Source of the DNA: Sporosarcina sp. BI001-red
Lineage (GTDB): Bacteria; Bacillota; Bacilli; Bacillales_A; Planococcaceae
Assembly: GCF_003384035.1 (NCBI RefSeq)
Contig: NZ_QQAK01000015.1
Location: 124,001 to 188,000, forward strand
Length of the DNA: 64,000 bases
Reading direction: 5' to 3'
The stretch's first letter is position 1, and each line of letters opens with the position of its first letter. The notes under the pieces are model-generated. The model had not been told where the DNA came from, made no database searches, and saw nothing but the letters and a program-made list of their open reading frames with translations. Shown here piece by piece: positions 26,760 through 60,007 of this stretch. A program made the translations under genes and the position numbers.

Positions 26760-27941
26760 TTGGTTGAAAAGATTTTATTTACTTCAGAGTCAGTGTCAGA
26801 AGGACATCCAGACAAAATTGCGGACCAAATTTCGGATGCAGTTTTGGATGCAGCGCTTGCACAGGACCCGTTTTCACGGGTTGCGTGTGAAGTGTTTACG
26901 ACAACAAACACTGTAATTGTTGGTGGAGAGATCACAACAGGAGCGGTGTTGGATATTGAAAAAATCGCTCGGCAAACGCTTCTGGAAATAGGATATGTGA
27001 ACGATGAATTAGGAATCGATGGCAACACTTGTAACGTGCAAGTGCTTGTCCATACGCAATCACCGGATATCGCTATGGGCGTAGATACGTCGAGTGATAC
27101 GAAAGAAATCGGTGCAGGGGACCAAGGTCTGATGTTCGGGTTTGCAACGGACGAAACAGCAGGATTCATGCCGTTGCCGATTGAACTGGCACACGCGCTT
27201 GTGAAAAAAGCGTCTGTCCTCCGGAAAAACGGTCAGTTCCGCTGGGCACGTCCCGATATGAAATCTCAAGTAACGATTGACTATACATCGAAAGAAACGC
27301 CAAAGATCGAGACGATTTTAATGTCGATCCAGCATGACGGTGACTTTGATAAAGAAGCGTTCGATGCGTATGTGAAAGAGGAAATCATTTTTAATACGGT
27401 GAAAGAATTCAATTTACCTGAACCAATCCGTGTGCTGATCAATCCAACGGGTCGATTTGTCACAGGTGGTCCTCATGGAGACGCAGGGTTAACAGGACGA
27501 AAAATCATCGTCGACACATACGGTGGAGCAGCTCGTCATGGTGGCGGTGCATTTTCTGGAAAAGACTGTACGAAAGTCGACCGTTCCGCGGCATACGCTG
27601 CACGATATGTCGCGAAAAATATTGTTGCTGCTGGACTTGCGAAGAAGTGTGAAATTCAGCTGTCCTACGCAATTGGCGTCAGTGAGCCAATCAGTATTGC
27701 AATTGATACGTTTGGAACAGGAAATGTCTCAGACGAAAAAATGCTTCGTGCTATACGAGAAGTATTTAATCTGACGCCTGCAGGGATTATCGACATGCTA
27801 GATTTACGGGCACCACGTTACCAGGCGACAGCTGCATACGGACATTTTGGCCGTACAGAACTAGATTTACCTTGGGAGCGGACAGACAAAGTGGATGCGT
27901 TAACGCAATCTGTACATGACACAATCGGAGCCGGGTGCTGA
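26760..27941 (+). CDS. metK: S-adenosylmethionine synthetase
   Basis: MetK condenses methionine and ATP to SAM. At 393 residues it is of normal length. Signatures include [30 protein letters not shown] and [19 protein letters not shown], all intact. It starts at TTG behind AAGGAG. It is the first gene of a polyamine operon, so here it should feed SAM to SpeD. Its leader is not the S-box RNA usual for Bacillus metK, so this may be a pathway-dedicated copy or the genome's only metK under other control. The stop overlaps the speA start (TGATG). Confidence 0.95.
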
Positions 27942-29431
27942 TGAACATCGTCAAAGAGACGACAGTTCCAACAAGAAATCTTCTCCAAACGGATGCGCCA
28001 CTATTTGACGCGCTCGTCCGATATGCGAATTCTGAAACGGTTTCGTTTGATGTACCGGGTCACAAAATGGGAGCATTGAACACTCCGTTTCGCGATGCAA
28101 TCGGGGAGCAAGCGCTGAAAATGGATGTCAATTCGATGGTGGAGCTAGACTTGTTAAGCCATCCGAAATCGGTCATTAAAGATGCACAAGAGTTAGCGGC
28201 ACAAAGTTTTGGAGCGGATCATGCGTTTTTTCTAGTCAACGGCACAACTGTCGGGATCCACGCGATGCTTCTCGCGTCGTGTAAACCAGGGGAGACACTC
28301 CTTGTACCACGTAATTGCCATAAATCGGTCATAGACGGAATGATCTTAAGTGGTGTCTTGCCTACATTCATGCAACCGGAAGTGGATGAACAATTTGGGA
28401 TTTCACATAGTGTTTCAGCAGAAAACGTCGCGAAAGCACTGAAAGAAAATCCAACTGCAAAGGCAGTGCTCGTTACGTATCCAACGTATTTCGGGACGAT
28501 GACCGATCTGAAGACGATTTGTGAAATAGCCCATGCAGCAGGTGCCATCGTACTAGTCGATGCTGCACACGGTGCGCATTTAAGGAGTATGGAGGGAATG
28601 ATTGACCCCATACAAGCGGGAGCAGATCTTGTTACAACGAGCATGCATAAAACGGGCGGCTCGCTTACTCAAAGTTCGCTTTTATTGCTTCAAGGCAATC
28701 GCATTACTGCAGATAAAGTACGGAAAGTGACCAGCATGCTCCAAACGACAAGTGCCAACTACCTGCTGATGAGCTCATTGGACGCAGCTCGAAGAGAACT
28801 TGCCCTTCATGGGGCTAATGCATTTCAACGATTGAAGCCGATTATTGACGAGGCTATAGAATTAATTGAATCAGGCGGACATTATGAAGTGTTGAAAAAC
28901 AATAATGTCAGCAATCGTTTTCTTCAGTCCCATGACTGGACGAAGTTAGTGATCCGGGTGAACGGCCTGGGACGGACTGGTTTTGAAGTTTATTCACTAT
29001 TAAAACAACGCTATGGTATTCAGATGGAGCTTGCAGAAGGGTATGTCGTCATGGCGGTGGTGACGCCAGCGGATACAACAACTACAATCGAATGTCTAAC
29101 ATCAGCATTGCTAGATATAGAACGAACGTGCACAAAACCGCACGTTCTCCACTCTGCATGGACAGTGGTGGATTCTGTCAATGAACTCGTGATGACACCG
29201 AGAGATGCATTTTATGCAGAACAAGAATCAGTAGCGATAGATGATGCCATCGGTCGAATTAGTGCAGATACATTAATGATTTACCCGCCTGGAATTCCAT
29301 TAGTGATTCCAGGTGAACGAATAACGTGTGAAGTGATCCAGCATTATGCCTATTATGAGCAAGCATTCGGAAGCGTGTTATCTGAGTCAAAACAAAGTGG
29401 CAGCGTGACTGTCGTAAAAGGGGGATTTTAA
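27941..29431 (+). CDS. speA: Arginine decarboxylase (Orn/Lys/Arg decarboxylase, fold I)
   Basis: PLP-dependent decarboxylase of the short Bacillus SpeA type, 496 residues. The PLP lysine is Lys237 in MHKTGGS, preceded by VDAAHGAH, which holds the cofactor-binding Asp. In this operon it should convert arginine to agmatine for the agmatinase encoded three genes on. Lysine or ornithine use cannot be excluded by sequence alone, but the agmatinase partner favours arginine. Start overlaps the metK stop. An in-frame GTG six bases earlier is an alternative start. Confidence 0.9.
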   Translation: MNIVKETTVPTRNLLQTDAPLFDALVRYANSETVSFDVPGHKMGALNTPFRDAIGEQALKMDVNSMVELDLLSHPKSVIKDAQELAAQSFGADHAFFLVNGTTVGIHAMLLASCKPGETLLVPRNCHKSVIDGMILSGVLPTFMQPEVDEQFGISHSVSAENVAKALKENPTAKAVLVTYPTYFGTMTDLKTICEIAHAAGAIVLVDAAHGAHLRSMEGMIDPIQAGADLVTTSMHKTGGSLTQSSLLLLQGNRITADKVRKVTSMLQTTSANYLLMSSLDAARRELALHGANAFQRLKPIIDEAIELIESGGHYEVLKNNNVSNRFLQSHDWTKLVIRVNGLGRTGFEVYSLLKQRYGIQMELAEGYVVMAVVTPADTTTTIECLTSALLDIERTCTKPHVLHSAWTVVDSVNELVMTPRDAFYAEQESVAIDDAIGRISADTLMIYPPGIPLVIPGERITCEVIQHYAYYEQAFGSVLSESKQSGSVTVVKGGF

Positions 29432-29433
29432 CG

Positions 29434-29868
29434 ATGAGTTTAGAATTATCGGCGCTAGGACGCCACGTGTTGATTGAATATTATGGGTGCCCGAGTGAAA
29501 TTATAGAGAACAACAAAGTGATTGAGCAGTTCATGAAAGAGGCTGCTGATTATTCAGGAGCTACCATTGTAGAATCAGTGTTCCATCATTTTAATCCATA
29601 CGGGGTATCGGGCGCTGTCATCATCGCGGAATCTCACCTTACGATTCACACGTGGCCAGAATACGGCTTTGCTTCTGTAGATGTTTATACATGTGGCGAT
29701 TCAGTAAGCCCTTGGAAAGCGGCTGATTATTTGGCTGAGAAGCTACAAGCCAAAAAGGTGGAGTCATTTGAAGTACCACGTGGCATGGTCGAAAAGATTC
29801 GTCAGTTTGCAGAGCGTGAGATTGAAGAAGTGACTGTGAAACCAATATTGGCAGGTGCAAACGTATGA
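29434..29868 (+). CDS. speD: S-adenosylmethionine decarboxylase proenzyme
   Basis: Prokaryotic AdoMet decarboxylase, 144 residues. Self-cleavage before Ser67 in AESHLTIHTWPE creates the pyruvoyl cofactor; CGD at the conserved cysteine motif (VDVYTCGD) is present. It makes decarboxylated SAM, the aminopropyl donor for SpeE. It is slightly longer at the C-terminus than B. subtilis SpeD. It starts two bases after the speA stop and its end overlaps the speE start (ATGA). Confidence 0.95.
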   Translation: MSLELSALGRHVLIEYYGCPSEIIENNKVIEQFMKEAADYSGATIVESVFHHFNPYGVSGAVIIAESHLTIHTWPEYGFASVDVYTCGDSVSPWKAADYLAEKLQAKKVESFEVPRGMVEKIRQFAEREIEEVTVKPILAGANV

Positions 29869-30719
29869 GTTGGTATACAGAACAATGGAGCGAGGACTGC
29901 AAGTTTTCTGTAGGATATGAAAAGCATCTGCACAGCGAAAAGTCGCCGTTCCAGCAAATCGATTTTTATGAAGGCAAAGAATTCGGTACGTTTTTCACGC
30001 TAGATGGCTTGATGATGGTCAACGAAAAAGACGAATTCATCTACCACGACATGATTGTCCACCCGGCTTTCGCAACGAATCCAGAGATTAAGAAAGTGCT
30101 CGTGATCGGCGGCGGAGACGGGGGGACTGCGCGTGAAGTATTGCGCTATCCAGGCGTGGAACAAGTTGTCCTTGCTGAAATAGATGAGCAAGTATTCCGT
30201 CTGTGCCAACAGTACTTACCAATTACAGCAGCAGGTGTAGAAGAAGACCCGCGCATGGAACTCGCTTTCGGTGACGGACTTGCATATGTCCAAAATGCAC
30301 CAGACGCTTCTTTTGACTTAATTCTCGTCGATTCTACTGACCCGGTTTCAGTAGGAGAAGGGTTGTTCACGACAGCCTTTTACAAGGAATGCTATCGTGT
30401 GTTAAATGACAAAGGGATCTTGATCAACCAGCATGAGTCACCGTATTTCTCGGAGTATGCAGAGAACATGAAAAAAGCGCGCACGAAGATTAAAAAAATC
30501 TTCCCTGTCGCACGTGTTTATCAATATCATATGCCGACGTATCCATCGGGCCACTGGCTGTTCGGTTTCGCTTCGAAATCTCTTGATCCATTGAAAGATG
30601 CAGATGCGACAAAGTGGAACGCACTCGGTTTGAAGACGAAGTATTACAATACAGATCTTCATCGCGGAGCATTTGCATTGCCGAGTTATGTGCGGGAGGC
30701 GCTAGATAGTGAAGAATAA
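29865..30719 (+). CDS. speE: Spermidine synthase
   Basis: Aminopropyltransferase, 284 residues, cytoplasmic. The SAM-binding motif VIGGGDGGTAREVLRY and the catalytic VDSTDPV are typical. It transfers the aminopropyl group of decarboxylated SAM to putrescine to give spermidine. The start overlaps the speD stop by four bases, and its 3' end overlaps speB by 11 bases, showing tight coupling. Confidence 0.95.
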   Translation: MSWYTEQWSEDCKFSVGYEKHLHSEKSPFQQIDFYEGKEFGTFFTLDGLMMVNEKDEFIYHDMIVHPAFATNPEIKKVLVIGGGDGGTAREVLRYPGVEQVVLAEIDEQVFRLCQQYLPITAAGVEEDPRMELAFGDGLAYVQNAPDASFDLILVDSTDPVSVGEGLFTTAFYKECYRVLNDKGILINQHESPYFSEYAENMKKARTKIKKIFPVARVYQYHMPTYPSGHWLFGFASKSLDPLKDADATKWNALGLKTKYYNTDLHRGAFALPSYVREALDSEE

Positions 30720-31569
30720 TGTGTTGAATACAAATCCCTTCATCGGCTGTGAAACACCCTATGAAGAAGCGGATATCGTATTATTCGGTTCACCATTTGA
30801 CGGAACGACTAGTTTCAGACCTGGTACCCGATTTGCAGGCCAAGCGATTCGTCCGGATTCCTATGGCTTAGAGACGTATTCTCCTTATTTGGATAAAGAC
30901 CTCGAAGATGCTTGCGTTTTCGACCACGGTGACTTGGAATTACCGTTCGGGAATACGGAGCGTGTCCTTCAACAAATTGGAACGTTCAGCGGTCAAGTCT
31001 TGGCGGATGGGAAGAAGTTTCTCATGATAGGAGGAGAGCATTTAGTCAGCTTGCCTTCCATCAGAGCGGCTTACGACACGTTCCCAGATCTGCATGTCAT
31101 CCACATTGATGCGCATACCGATTTACGAGAAGACTATATGGGGGAGCCACTATCGCACGCATCCGTTATTCGGCGCTGCCACGATTTTCTCGGTGACGGA
31201 CGCATCTTTCAGTTCGGAATCCGCTCCGGCTTGAAGAGTGAGTTTGACTGGGCAAAGACGCATACCCATTTGGAAAAGTTCACACTTGATACGTTACCCG
31301 AAGTGGTAAACTCGTTGAAAGACGTCCCCGTGTATGTGACGATAGACTTGGATGTACTGGATCCTGGAACATTCCCCGGTACCGGAACGCCTGAGCCTGG
31401 TGGCCTCACATACCGGGAATTGCTCGCGGCGATTGGACACCTTCAAACACTTGAAAATATCGTAGCGACAGACGTCGTAGAATTATCACCACAATACGAT
31501 CCGTCAGGTGCCTCGACAGCAGTTGCTTGTAAGACCATTCGAGAGATGTTGCTGACGCTAGCAAAGTGA
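30709..31569 (+). CDS. speB: Agmatinase
   Basis: Ureohydrolase of 286 residues. The two-manganese site is formed by GGEHLVS, HIDAHTDLRED and TIDLDVLDP, all complete. It converts agmatine to putrescine and urea, supplying the SpeE acceptor. It starts at a GTG inside the end of speE. It is the last gene of the operon, followed by a strong terminator. Confidence 0.95.
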   Translation: MKNNVLNTNPFIGCETPYEEADIVLFGSPFDGTTSFRPGTRFAGQAIRPDSYGLETYSPYLDKDLEDACVFDHGDLELPFGNTERVLQQIGTFSGQVLADGKKFLMIGGEHLVSLPSIRAAYDTFPDLHVIHIDAHTDLREDYMGEPLSHASVIRRCHDFLGDGRIFQFGIRSGLKSEFDWAKTHTHLEKFTLDTLPEVVNSLKDVPVYVTIDLDVLDPGTFPGTGTPEPGGLTYRELLAAIGHLQTLENIVATDVVELSPQYDPSGASTAVACKTIREMLLTLAK

Positions 31570-31621: not shown

Positions 31622-32854
31622 TTAATTTAAGTCTACAGTAGGTGTGCTTACACTAGATGGACTTTCCTTCTGTGTATGCGAAAGTGTCAACATGAAGATG
31701 AATGACACACAGAACAGGATTGCGAGGTAAATCATCGCAGCAGTCATATCATAGTTTTGCAAGATGTACCCGACGAGTATTGGTGAGAAACCGCCGACAG
31801 CACGTCCAAAGTTGAAAATAGTATTCGTTGCAGTACTTCGGATTTCCACTGGGTAGAAACTGCTGATCAAAGCTCCGTATCCTGCGAACATCCCGTTAGA
31901 GAAGAACCCAACGATAGCTCCACCAATCAGAACCCCGGCACTGCCTGTTGCATAGCTGTACAGGAAGACGGCTATGGCTGATGCGATTAAGAAGAGACCA
32001 TACGCTTTTTTCGCACCGAGTCTGTCCATGATTTGCCCGAAGACGAGCATACCTGCGATCATTCCAACTGCTGTACTGATTGTCCATAGAGCCGAACTTG
32101 AAACAGAAAGCCCTTGTGATTGTTGCAACATTGAAGGCAACCAGATCATCAAGCCGTTGTACCCTGCAATTTGGACAGTCGCCATGACAGCGAGTGTAAC
32201 TGTTGTAAATGCAACCCGTGGGGAAGCAACAAGCAAACGAAGTTTCCCGGCATTCTCTTTTTTCTGCGCAGCTTTTTTCAATTTCTGAGATTCGAGCCAC
32301 TCAGGGGATTCATCCAAATTACGACGCACGATGAATGCAAAGATGACTGGGATGATGCCAACGAAGAACAATGCTCTCCAACCGAACGCAGGTAAAATGA
32401 GTGCGCTTAGCAATGCAGCTAAGATGACACCGTATTGAGCCCCAACGCTAACATAAGAGGATGCGCGACCTTGTTTGTTTTTAGGCCATGCTTCCGCAAC
32501 GAGTGCCATTCCTATTCCATATTCTCCACCAGCACCAAGTCCAGCGATGAAGCGGTAGATATAAATTTGTTCAATGTTCGCTGCAAGTCCAGTAAGGGCT
32601 GTTCCAAGTGCGAACAATAGAATACTATATGTGAACACTTTAACGCGTCCGAATTTATCTGCTAAAATCCCGAAGAGCACGCCTCCGACGAGCATACCGA
32701 TATTTGTAACAGATGAGATCAGACCGCCTGTTGCAAAGTCGATTCCGAAGTCCGCAATGATCATCGTCATTGCGAAGGAAATGAACATGATATCCATGCC
32801 TTCAAGAGTAAGACCGGCGACTGAAGCCACCACCGTTTTCTTTTGATAATTCAT
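31622..32854 (-). CDS. MFS transporter, aromatic acid:H+ symporter-like, PyrR-controlled
   Basis: 12-helix major facilitator, 410 residues. GILADKFGRVKV (loop 2-3) and GLGAGGEYGIGMALVAEAWPKNKQGRASS are typical of the sugar porter/AAHS uptake branch, and DRLGAKK marks the second half. It starts at an ATG behind GGAAGGCGG. The 5' leader contains a PyrR-type RNA hairpin and an intrinsic terminator (separate entries), so expression should rise when pyrimidines are short. Import of orotate or another pyrimidine precursor is therefore a reasonable inference: orotate is a heteroaromatic acid and AAHS carriers take aromatic acids. Confidence 0.85.
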   Translation of the reverse strand: MNYQKKTVVASVAGLTLEGMDIMFISFAMTMIIADFGIDFATGGLISSVTNIGMLVGGVLFGILADKFGRVKVFTYSILLFALGTALTGLAANIEQIYIYRFIAGLGAGGEYGIGMALVAEAWPKNKQGRASSYVSVGAQYGVILAALLSALILPAFGWRALFFVGIIPVIFAFIVRRNLDESPEWLESQKLKKAAQKKENAGKLRLLVASPRVAFTTVTLAVMATVQIAGYNGLMIWLPSMLQQSQGLSVSSSALWTISTAVGMIAGMLVFGQIMDRLGAKKAYGLFLIASAIAVFLYSYATGSAGVLIGGAIVGFFSNGMFAGYGALISSFYPVEIRSTATNTIFNFGRAVGGFSPILVGYILQNYDMTAAMIYLAILFCVSFIFMLTLSHTQKESPSSVSTPTVDLN

Positions 32855-32989
32855 CGTATGTTCCGCCTTCCTATTGTAGGGTGTTGCTCAACGTAAGAAG
32901 AATGGAACCGTTATTCACGGCGATTGCCATCCTCTTTTTGCGTCTCACAGAACGCTTATTAAAAGAGTGCTCAGTAGTTAAATGTGCAC

Positions 32990-33027
32990 AAAAAATGCCC
33001 TCGCCGTCTTGGAGGACAGCAAGGGCA
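32990..33027 (-). terminator. Attenuator terminator in the MFS leader
   Basis: Reading leftwards: TGCCCTTGCTGTC with GACGGCGAGGGCA, then a T6 run. It lies about 135 bases before the MFS start and downstream of a promoter on the same strand, so it is an attenuator and not an operon end. Confidence 0.85.
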
Positions 33028-33043
33028 AAGTACGACAAATCAC

Positions 33044-33110
33044 GTAAGACAAGGCAGAGCCAGTCTTACAATCCGGTACCCTTTCCGGCCTCTCTGGACC
33101 GTGTTAAAGG
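33044..33110 (-). promoter_or_regulatory. PyrR-binding hairpin and antiterminator region
   Basis: On the minus strand CCTTT-AACA-CGG-TCCAGAGAGG-CCG-GAAAGG (33080-33110) has the two-part stem, internal bulge and purine-rich UCCAGAGAGG loop of known PyrR anti-antiterminators. Downstream, GGGTAC can pair across a nested GTAAGAC/GTCTTAC hairpin (33044-33069) with GTAC and CCC of the terminator's left arm, a plausible antiterminator. By the B. subtilis pyr mechanism, PyrR with UMP would stabilise the hairpin and cause termination. Confidence 0.82.
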
Positions 33111-33128
33111 AGCAATTTAATTGTTTTT

Positions 33129-33157
33129 ATACTACCAGAAGAAATTTAGTTGTACAA
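33129..33157 (-). promoter_or_regulatory. Promoter of the PyrR-controlled MFS gene
   Basis: On the minus strand, TTGTAC (33152-33157) and TAGTAT (33129-33134) with a 17-bp spacer and a TG extended -10. It lies just upstream of the PyrR hairpin. Confidence 0.7.
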
Positions 33158-33228
33158 GATATTTTTACTGGTACTAGCAATGTTGGAGTTTTCGATTAAT
33201 ATTTTTTAACGCAGATGTCGTTCATTAA

Positions 33229-33237
33229 TGCTATAAT
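33229..33237 (+). promoter_or_regulatory. Extended -10 promoter of the permease gene
   Basis: TGCTATAAT, a perfect TATAAT with the extended TGn element and a poor -35. It lies 37 bases before the GTG start. Confidence 0.55.
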
Positions 33238-33273
33238 TATTCAGTTCTTCAATTTTTGGATGGAGGTTATATC

Positions 33274-34338
33274 GTGAATACGACAGAAGTACATCATCAA
33301 ACTCAGTCTAAACGAGTTCTTCTATATAGCTTAACGTTTTTAGCAATTGCGATCATTGGTCTTACCTATGTTAAATGGATGCCGTATGTGGGCAAGAGTA
33401 TTACTGCGATTACGACACATTCCATCGGGGACTCAATTTTAGGAACAGACCCCGGAAAAGCGGAGTCAGCTTCTTTTTCAGGAGCGTGGGACTATGCAGT
33501 AACGTATTTTGCTGCAGTATGGAAAGCCGCAGTGCTCGGAATTCTATTAGGCTCATTATTGCAAGTGCTTCTGCCAGCAAATTGGCTTATTCGTGTACTT
33601 GGTAAAACATCATTCGCAAGTACAGCTGCTGGCGGACTCGCTGCAGTACCGGGCATGATGTGCACGTGTTGCGCAGCCCCTGTAGCAGTAGGTCTCCGCA
33701 AAAAGAATGTATCAGTTGGTGCGGCACTTGCATTTTGGATTGGAAATCCAACGTTAAATCCAGCGGCGCTCGTGTTCATGACATTCGTATTGTCTTGGAA
33801 GTTCACGGCGCTTCGGTTAGTGTTTGGAATAATTTTGACGTTTGGTGTGAGCTATTTAGCGAACCGATTCGCCCCAGCCGTTAAACCGGTGGATACGGAA
33901 AAGTTATTACAGCAAGCTGCTGAGGAAGAACAAGGTTCGTTTCTTATGCGCTGGCTCAAGAGTCTAGGGAAAATGACATTGTTCATATTACCGGCGTACT
34001 TCCTATCCGTTTTGTTGATGGGTGCAGTGAAAGGGTGGTTGTTCCCACAATTAGGGGAAGCGACAGGAAGTTCAATTTTGTTACTAGTGCTTATTGCGAT
34101 TGGCGGCATGTTGTTTGTCATTCCAACAGCTGCAGAAATTCCAATCATCCAGACATTCATGGCATACGGAATGGGCGGTGGCCCGGCAGCAGCATTGTTG
34201 CTTACATTGCCAGCTGTTAGTTTGCCGTCATTATTGCTCGTTTCAAAGTCGTTCCCTAAACGTGTTCTCGTCTTCGTCAGTGTATCTGTCGTTGTGCTAG
34301 GCGTTGTTGCAGGAATTGCAGGGAATTATATACTGTGA
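33274..34338 (+). CDS. ArsP_1/YraQ-like permease (DUF318)
   Basis: Predicted permease of PF03773, 354 residues with about eight or nine helices. The conserved CTCCAAPVAVGLRKKN segment, with paired cysteines, and the matching second-half AAEIPIIQTF are family hallmarks. One branch (ArsP) exports organoarsenicals, but most members are uncharacterised. The GTG at 33274 follows TGGAGGTTAT; the TTG at 33256 lies before that site. It is divergent from the PyrR-controlled MFS gene, with a strong terminator after it. Confidence 0.8.
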   Translation: MNTTEVHHQTQSKRVLLYSLTFLAIAIIGLTYVKWMPYVGKSITAITTHSIGDSILGTDPGKAESASFSGAWDYAVTYFAAVWKAAVLGILLGSLLQVLLPANWLIRVLGKTSFASTAAGGLAAVPGMMCTCCAAPVAVGLRKKNVSVGAALAFWIGNPTLNPAALVFMTFVLSWKFTALRLVFGIILTFGVSYLANRFAPAVKPVDTEKLLQQAAEEEQGSFLMRWLKSLGKMTLFILPAYFLSVLLMGAVKGWLFPQLGEATGSSILLLVLIAIGGMLFVIPTAAEIPIIQTFMAYGMGGGPAAALLLTLPAVSLPSLLLVSKSFPKRVLVFVSVSVVVLGVVAGIAGNYIL

Positions 34339-59760: not shown

Positions 59761-60007
59761 AATAATGATCGATGAAGTGGCTAAGTAGATAAGAATCGTG
59801 AAACAGAAAATAGAGCGCATTGCTGAAAGCTCTATCACCTCTTCTTGTTCGAACCCTACCACCGAGATGTCGTGTAAACACGACCGGTTCGTCCCGTTAC
59901 GAAACGATAGAGGACTAATTTGCGATGTTTGCTAATTAGTCGAACTAAGGTGGTACCGCGTCCAAAACACAAAGACGTCCTTTTACAAGGATGTTTTTGT
60001 GTTTTTT
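59761..60007 (+). promoter_or_regulatory. T-box riboswitch upstream of proS
   Basis: The T-box core GGTGGTACCGCG (59949-59960) is present, followed by the terminator ACACAAAGACGTCCTT with AAGGATGTTTTTGTGT (about 59967-60001) and a T run. Stem I begins near 59776 (GTGG with CCAC near 59860), contains AGTA (loop E) and a terminal AGAGC/GCTCT arm. The specifier is CCT (59855-59857) after GAAC, or CCC one base earlier; both are proline codons. TGGT in the bulge fits the ACCA end of tRNA-Pro. Uncharged tRNA-Pro should therefore induce proS. Confidence 0.93.

Follow-up and report, generated by a model that had tools for sequence, protein, structure and literature searches.

PyrR-dependent translational repression was reportedly described in Mycobacterium smegmatis by Fields and Switzer in 2007. 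PyrR attenuators have the consensus ARUCCAGAGAGGYU and a two-part stem and act through an antiterminator and a terminator (PMC7430163, excerpt), and in Streptococcus pneumoniae the putative uracil transporter SP_1286 is described as PyrR-controlled (PMC10942264, excerpt). Bacterial import of orotate is described for OroP of Lactococcus lactis (TC 2.A.7.21.4) and for DctA, a C4-dicarboxylate transporter of Escherichia coli and Salmonella (PMC12802215, PMC13328217, excerpts), and Bacillus methanolicus is described as unharmed by 5-fluoroorotate, whereas Bacillus subtilis 168 is reported to become sensitive to this compound when oroP is expressed in it (PMC12802215, excerpt).

We analyzed a 64,000-nucleotide stretch of the genome of Sporosarcina sp. 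BI001-red (hereafter, the window), in which a PyrR-type attenuator occupies the leader at 33157-32855 (minus strand) ahead of an MFS transporter gene. We propose that this gene probably encodes a PyrR-repressed MFS protein that takes up a pyrimidine precursor; the most likely one is orotate, which would feed PyrE and PyrF. The features of the locus, in the order of transcription, are:

33129..33157, minus strand: putative promoter, read by eye, with -35 TTGTAC (33157-33152), a spacer of 17 nt and -10 TAGTAT (33134-33129)
33078..33111, minus strand: PyrR site 1 (anti-antiterminator), loop CAGAGA in UCCAGAGAGG, two-part stem, from RF00515 and the covariance model R1
33013..33091, minus strand: predicted antiterminator, formed by the 3' strand of site 1 and the 5' arm of the terminator and enclosing an internal hairpin
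32990..33027, minus strand: intrinsic terminator, a 13-pair stem (33027-32996) followed by a U tract
32932..32967, minus strand: PyrR-type site 2, CUCUUUU ... GCGUUCUGUGAGACGC ... AAAAGAG with loop CUGUGA, from RF00515 and the orthologue alignment
32901..32931, minus strand: conserved GRAUGG...CCAUU(C) pairing after site 2, with 95.4% of cells paired and no two-sided changes
32863..32872, minus strand: ribosome binding site AGGAAGGCGG, read from the sequence
31622..32854, minus strand: MFS transporter gene, 410 aa, from profile matches

An earlier note, made from the letters of the window, had described a hairpin with a PyrR loop and two-part stem in this leader and named RF00515 as the check on it. 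A covariance match does exist: RF00515 aligns over its full length at 32991-33114 (minus strand) with 50.6 bits (E 7.9e-6 in the 0.9 kb searched, 7.0e-6 genome-wide). R1, which was built from 14 pyr-operon hairpins of the genus and includes no transporter leader (three of the 17 hairpin rows of alignment A1, shifted by one base, were left out), matches site 1 with 33.6 bits (E 6.1e-6). The binding loop and upper stem at site 1 read GGUCCAGAGAGGCC, the PyrR consensus or a close variant of it, and the lower stem carries an internal bulge in the RF00515 alignment and in the full-length R1 match. A gathering-mode Rfam scan omits the leader element, whose score lies below the RF00515 gathering threshold of 54 bits, a curation cut-off and not a biological feature. 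The pyr-operon attenuators of the same genome also fall below 54 (53.9 and 48.2 bits), and missing this score means little here because none of the three clear RF00515 elements of the genome reaches it; some orthologue leaders do (e.g., 61.1 bits in G034 and 54.4 in G044).

The intrinsic terminator that had been read in the leader, its 13-pair stem followed by a T run, is the sole terminator found in 32800-33300, where shuffled sequences would lead one to expect 0.3. The antiterminator, previously called plausible, is the predicted minimum-energy fold (-28.9 kcal/mol) of an RNA that ends at the 5' arm of the terminator and is cut before its 3' arm, and with the whole terminator present the combination of site 1 and terminator is predicted to win, making antiterminator and terminator mutually exclusive by prediction. 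The 32991-33114 fold has an energy of -51.6 kcal/mol (z -4.34), and one of 200 shuffles was as stable. Regulation by PyrR at site 1 would follow the classical attenuator arrangement, a reading well supported by these matches and modelled folds. For the promoter proposed in the same note, TTGTAC-17-TAGTAT is readable by eye, but a consensus promoter scan of 32800-33300 finds no promoter. Ahead of site 1, 70 of 76 orthologue leaders have a loose match to a -10 element, 61 of them with TGn, a count made without a control run.

Across the 3.52-Mb, 17-contig genome of the window, RF00515 has three clear matches, the transporter leader (E 7.0e-6) and two on contig C9 at 141860 and 143961 (E 2.0e-5 and 1.7e-6, respectively), and the fourth-ranked match has an E value of 0.016. 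The C9 attenuators lie ahead of pyrR and between pyrP and pyrB. This genome encodes a PyrR protein (L003, 261.5 bits to NF003549, cut-off 138), PyrB, and a PyrP-like permease that exceeds the cut-off of the NCS2 model (423 bits) and falls just under that of the uracil permease model (463.5 bits, cut-off 477).

The loop had been expected to be conserved in orthologues, and it is. An orthologue with at least 77% identity occurs in 19 of 68 same-genus genomes (in one it is split on its contig), and RF00515 matches lie directly upstream, by position, in all 19, with two in G034. The remaining 49 genus genomes, without an orthologue, have one or two RF00515 matches each; in one of them a match of 40.2 bits (G045:C2:67562-67689) is on a different contig from its other match. 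A scan of GTDB contigs gave 243 matches, and the best 80, taken as orthologue loci, come from Sporosarcina, Lysinibacillus, Peribacillus, Neobacillus, Niallia, Paenibacillus, Virgibacillus, Kurthia and other genera. Of these best 80, 62 show the loop pattern TC[CT][AT]G[AC]GAG[GA] in the 500 nt ahead of the gene. Searched over 934 kb (81 sources), R1 gave 140 matches at E up to 10. The locus matches with E<1 number 109; every one falls in the 800 nt preceding the transporter gene, and together they cover 73 of the best 80 of 243 loci, with two matches at 36 of these; site 1 of the window is one further match, and the first match elsewhere has an E value of 1.6. At E<1 R1 misses seven loci (L029, L055, L059, L062, L071, L074 and L087), in all of which PyrR-type loops can be read within 140 nt of the start codon. 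Each of the 78 orthologue genomes scanned whole (of 80) has an RF00515 match somewhere. Within three genes of the transporter, even the commonest neighbor family is found at no more than 10 of the best 80 of 243 loci, so the PyrR leader is the constant association of the transporter gene.

Site 2, which the earlier note did not mention, is a second PyrR-type hairpin. Alone, the window's copy scores at chance level with RF00515 (24 bits, E 0.74), and R1 reports no match there. Among the best 80 of 243 loci, 79 have a PyrR-type loop, T[ACT][CT]NG[AT]GAG[GA], no more than 140 nt ahead of the start codon, where about one in 80 is expected by chance at equal base frequencies, and 76 have two or more PyrR-type loops within 520 nt. 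In a first layout (21 of the 80 loci, many of them Neobacillus) the loop lies 26-31 nt before the start codon and the Shine-Dalgarno sequence is the 3' strand of the hairpin's lower stem. In a second layout (58 loci and the window) the loop lies 80-134 nt upstream of the start and is usually followed by GAAUGGA...UCCAUUC and then by a separate ribosome site; in the window the ribosome site is about 60 nt downstream of site 2, with the Shine-Dalgarno sequence outside the hairpin. Two loci look as though DNA had been inserted into the leader: in L036 site 1 is at -420 nt with site 2 still near the start, and in L030 the nearest PyrR-type loop is 420 nt upstream, with none within 140 nt.

In the alignment of the second layout, 95.0% of the stem cells are paired, against 32-57% when the partner is slid by one to three columns, and the alignment has a covariation score of 0.186, higher than that of shuffles (0.144) or of any slid control (0.088 or less), which argues for a stem that is real by pairing and has modest covariation. 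Two-sided changes occupy 23 cells, compared to 6.8 (sd 2.4) in shuffles and to 30 and 25 in controls slid by +1 and -3, respectively; they fall in two upper-stem pairs plus one cell, related rows share them, and the three pairs with a two-sided change do not exceed the shuffles (3.5). The Shine-Dalgarno hairpin of the first layout (21 rows) has no two-sided changes, and its sequence hardly varies. The site 2 loop across orthologues is mostly CNGUGA, not CAGAGA. We count CUGUGA as a PyrR loop because it occurs in 11 of 31 pyr-operon attenuators of the genus (found in 32 loci), and the closing pairs of the window's site 2 (GUU...GAC) are those of the genome's own pyrB attenuator. When site 2 was forced to form, the predicted accessibility of the Shine-Dalgarno sequence dropped from 0.25 to 0.12 in the 21-locus layout. 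In the window's layout the mean, taken over 55 of 58 sequences (no ribosome motif was recognized in L037, L088 and L094, which were left out), went from 0.27 to 0.26, and we set aside a Shine-Dalgarno switch in that layout because accessibility barely moves.

Whether site 2 is a PyrR site at all is a question separate from that of the substrate. We consider it unlikely that the hairpin is instead a relic of a duplicated attenuator or a structure serving mRNA stability. Such an origin would be consistent with the 24-bit score of the window's copy and its absence from the R1 matches, with ribosome-site access that is predicted to be unaffected in the window's layout, and with two-sided changes no more frequent than in slid controls. 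Against it stand the presence, in 79 of the best 80 of 243 loci, of such a loop no more than 140 nt from the start codon, pairing and a covariation score that exceed both kinds of control, loop types that occur in genuine pyr attenuators, and the 21 loci in which the Shine-Dalgarno sequence is part of the hairpin. Elsewhere in the family, a hairpin with loop CAGAGA lies a few nucleotides before the ribosome site of homologues in lactobacilli (L184, L185, L186) and other Bacilli (L195, L199, L201, L205); the stems differ yet remain complementary (e.g., GGATGACAGAGAGCATCC and GGCAGACAGAGAGCTGCC), and at the gathering score Rfam has no match at these seven hairpins, which are possibly another PyrR-like, or some other, translational element.

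The transporter is 98% identical to Sporosarcina proteins and belongs to the MFS (TC 2.A.1). Its earlier description as an AAHS-like MFS carrier needs qualification: the TIGR00895 (AAHS) profile matches residues 2-365 with 293 bits, but does not reach its cut-off of 418.55, and although AAHS is the nearest family to this MFS carrier by sequence, "AAHS-type" expresses only a resemblance. Named entries among 120 listed relatives are mostly "MFS transporter", and one (P0013) is a "putative niacin/nicotinamide transporter". The surroundings of the gene include a divergent ArsP_1-family permease (33256-34338, plus strand, with a TTG start in the list of open reading frames) that shares its intergenic region with the PyrR leader, and a convergent polyamine cluster (26760-31569, plus strand) comprising a gene that by eye resembles a SAM synthetase, a decarboxylase-like gene with a weak match to its model, and speD, speE and speB. 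Further along the window, a T-box leader (59763-59985, plus strand, 103.5 bits) precedes a gene whose start resembles that of a prolyl-tRNA synthetase (by eye).

Some homologues at 40-45% identity sit with a dihydroorotate dehydrogenase gene or adjoin pyrF-pyrE. Plasmid homologues were found in 71 matching records, 53 of them from Klebsiella, and in both Klebsiella stretches examined (of the 53) the transporter gene is beside pyrC and genes for a carbamoylase-type hydrolase, a dihydroorotate dehydrogenase and an electron-transfer-like protein, the last under the cut-off of its model. Variovorax has the same gene set plus a gene annotated as orotate phosphoribosyltransferase (215 bits, cut-off 245). 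We take the Klebsiella and Variovorax clusters to resemble reductive orotate breakdown. The plasmid neighborhoods of Burkholderia (L189), Haematobacter (L190), Roseomonas (L191), three lactobacilli and Enterococcus (L183) hold no orotate pointers, and in two plasmid records the neighborhood is unannotated. The Burkholderia homologue is near a gallate dioxygenase gene. In the Enterococcus record (L183 4530-9156) the homologue is beside a PucR regulator, a nucleoside phosphorylase and deoB, which suggests that some members of the family carry a nucleoside-type substrate.

Of the 398 Bacilli genomes sampled, 24 encode a homologue that reaches E 1e-90 or better. In six of the 24 (G165, G185, G270, G357, G476 and G510) a gene of the dihydroorotate dehydrogenase family (PF01180) lies no more than 4 kb away, in each case as a second copy in its genome, and that of G357 passes the dihydroorotate dehydrogenase model (the sole one of six tested). 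The pyrF-pyrE pair adjoins the homologue in two (divergent in G383, on the same strand in G406), and a PyrR element is present in the homologue's leader in six (G000, G327, G354, G426, G298 and G458, the last missed by R1). Ten of the 24 show no pyrimidine tie, including G330, where the contig is too short to tell. At the distant Bacilli loci L192-L211, 16 of whose 20 leaders were read by motif, a PyrR element occurs in the transporter's own leader only at L203 and L205. The G383 genome (99% complete) has pyrE, pyrF and the transporter, with no match to PF01180 and no aspartate carbamoyltransferase over cut-off; because no dihydroorotate dehydrogenase was found there, its PyrE is hard to explain without imported orotate. 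The combination of pyrE with no dihydroorotate dehydrogenase gene occurs in just two of the 398 genomes, G383 and G312, too few for an association test on this pattern to count; G312 lacks the homologue, so G383 is a single example rather than a statistic.

A tree of 55 rows contains three supported groups, with a program warning about long branches at some joins: Bacillales including the window's transporter; Bacilli (lactobacilli, Enterococcus and others) including the pyrE-linked members; and the plasmid and Bacilli members of catabolic clusters. The simplest reading of these sequences is that orotate would be a substrate common at least to these members of the tree. The earlier note had predicted uptake of a pyrimidine precursor, perhaps orotate or dihydroorotate. 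Orotate gains backing from the neighborhoods of some distant homologues, whereas dihydroorotate alone becomes less likely because G383 has the transporter beside pyrF-pyrE and no detected dihydroorotate dehydrogenase.

PyrR control implies a role in pyrimidine supply and does not indicate which compound is carried, and the nucleoside phosphorylase and deoB genes beside the Enterococcus homologue could point to a PyrR-repressed importer of uracil, uridine, dihydroorotate or N-carbamoyl-aspartate. We regard such a substrate as rather improbable, given that the window's genome already has a PyrP-like permease, that G383, with no detected dihydroorotate dehydrogenase, would have no use for dihydroorotate or carbamoyl-aspartate, and that the catabolic clusters fit orotate best. 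The 293-bit TIGR00895 match, the niacin/nicotinamide name of relative P0013 and the gallate dioxygenase gene in Burkholderia would be expected of a carrier of aromatic acids or nicotinate whose control by PyrR is incidental, but the AAHS cut-off is not reached, the PyrR sites are kept while neighbors change across loci, and orotate-enzyme neighbors appear in two other tree groups, all of which makes this reading very improbable. MFS membership alone leaves the direction of transport unfixed; we nevertheless find an exporter barely credible, as PyrR represses at high UMP, whereas an exporter of excess pyrimidines would presumably be induced under that condition. We infer from these comparisons both the direction and the substrate of the proposed orotate importer.

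Under the proposed mechanism, when UMP or UTP is high PyrR would bind site 1 of the nascent leader, formation of the antiterminator would be blocked and RNA polymerase would stop at the terminator, and when UMP is low the antiterminator would form and the transporter gene would be made. Transcripts that escape the terminator would then carry the second PyrR-type hairpin ahead of the start codon. At 21 of the 80 loci PyrR would also block translation, because the Shine-Dalgarno sequence is part of the second hairpin there; in the window's layout the hairpin would form upstream of the ribosome site. We tentatively suggest, as a possibility that falls somewhat short of probable, that these proteins form a Bacillales family of orotate importers under two-level PyrR control, with attenuation at site 1 and a second hairpin that would block translation in the 21 loci and change the RNA fold in the 58 loci and the window.

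The importer reading offers a function for a transporter otherwise named "MFS transporter" or similar among the 120 listed relatives. If true, it implies that pyrimidine-prototrophic Bacillales can scavenge orotate under pyrimidine limitation, and sensitivity to 5-fluoroorotate is a predicted phenotype. The leader would also offer a naturally occurring tandem PyrR arrangement in which to ask how a single RNA-binding protein controls one gene at both the transcriptional and the translational level. The attenuator is of a kind already known. Among the matches listed in our search of the open-access literature, a scope outside which most subscription papers and RegPrecise lie, there is no account of this transporter family under PyrR or of its orotate transport, and no tandem PyrR sites in one leader; the gene family under PyrR and the tandem arrangement are both unseen among those matches. 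A "(SAM)-(PyrR)-MFS" entry for B. methanolicus (PMC4342826, excerpt) was set aside: the extra PyrR calls in it accompany SAM riboswitches and T-boxes, and to us they resemble calls made at a low threshold.

Compared to the attenuators of the Bacillus subtilis pyr operon (RF00515), the window's element has the same loop, two-part stem and antiterminator and terminator, but it precedes a single MFS gene that stands apart from the pyr operon, and its leader has a second PyrR-type hairpin after the attenuator. As reportedly in M. smegmatis, a PyrR-type hairpin holds the ribosome site in 21 orthologues, judging from their sequences; unlike the mycobacterial case, this hairpin lies downstream of an attenuator, in Bacillota, and it is not the layout of the window. 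The protein resembles the AAHS family over residues 2-365 and differs in staying under the family cut-off. The transporter shares with SP_1286 a place under a PyrR attenuator and differs in its predicted substrate, and the excerpt describing SP_1286 (PMC10942264) mentions no second site. With OroP and DctA, finally, it would share the import of orotate; OroP carries the number TC 2.A.7.21.4 and DctA is described as a C4-dicarboxylate transporter, the MFS being TC 2.A.1.
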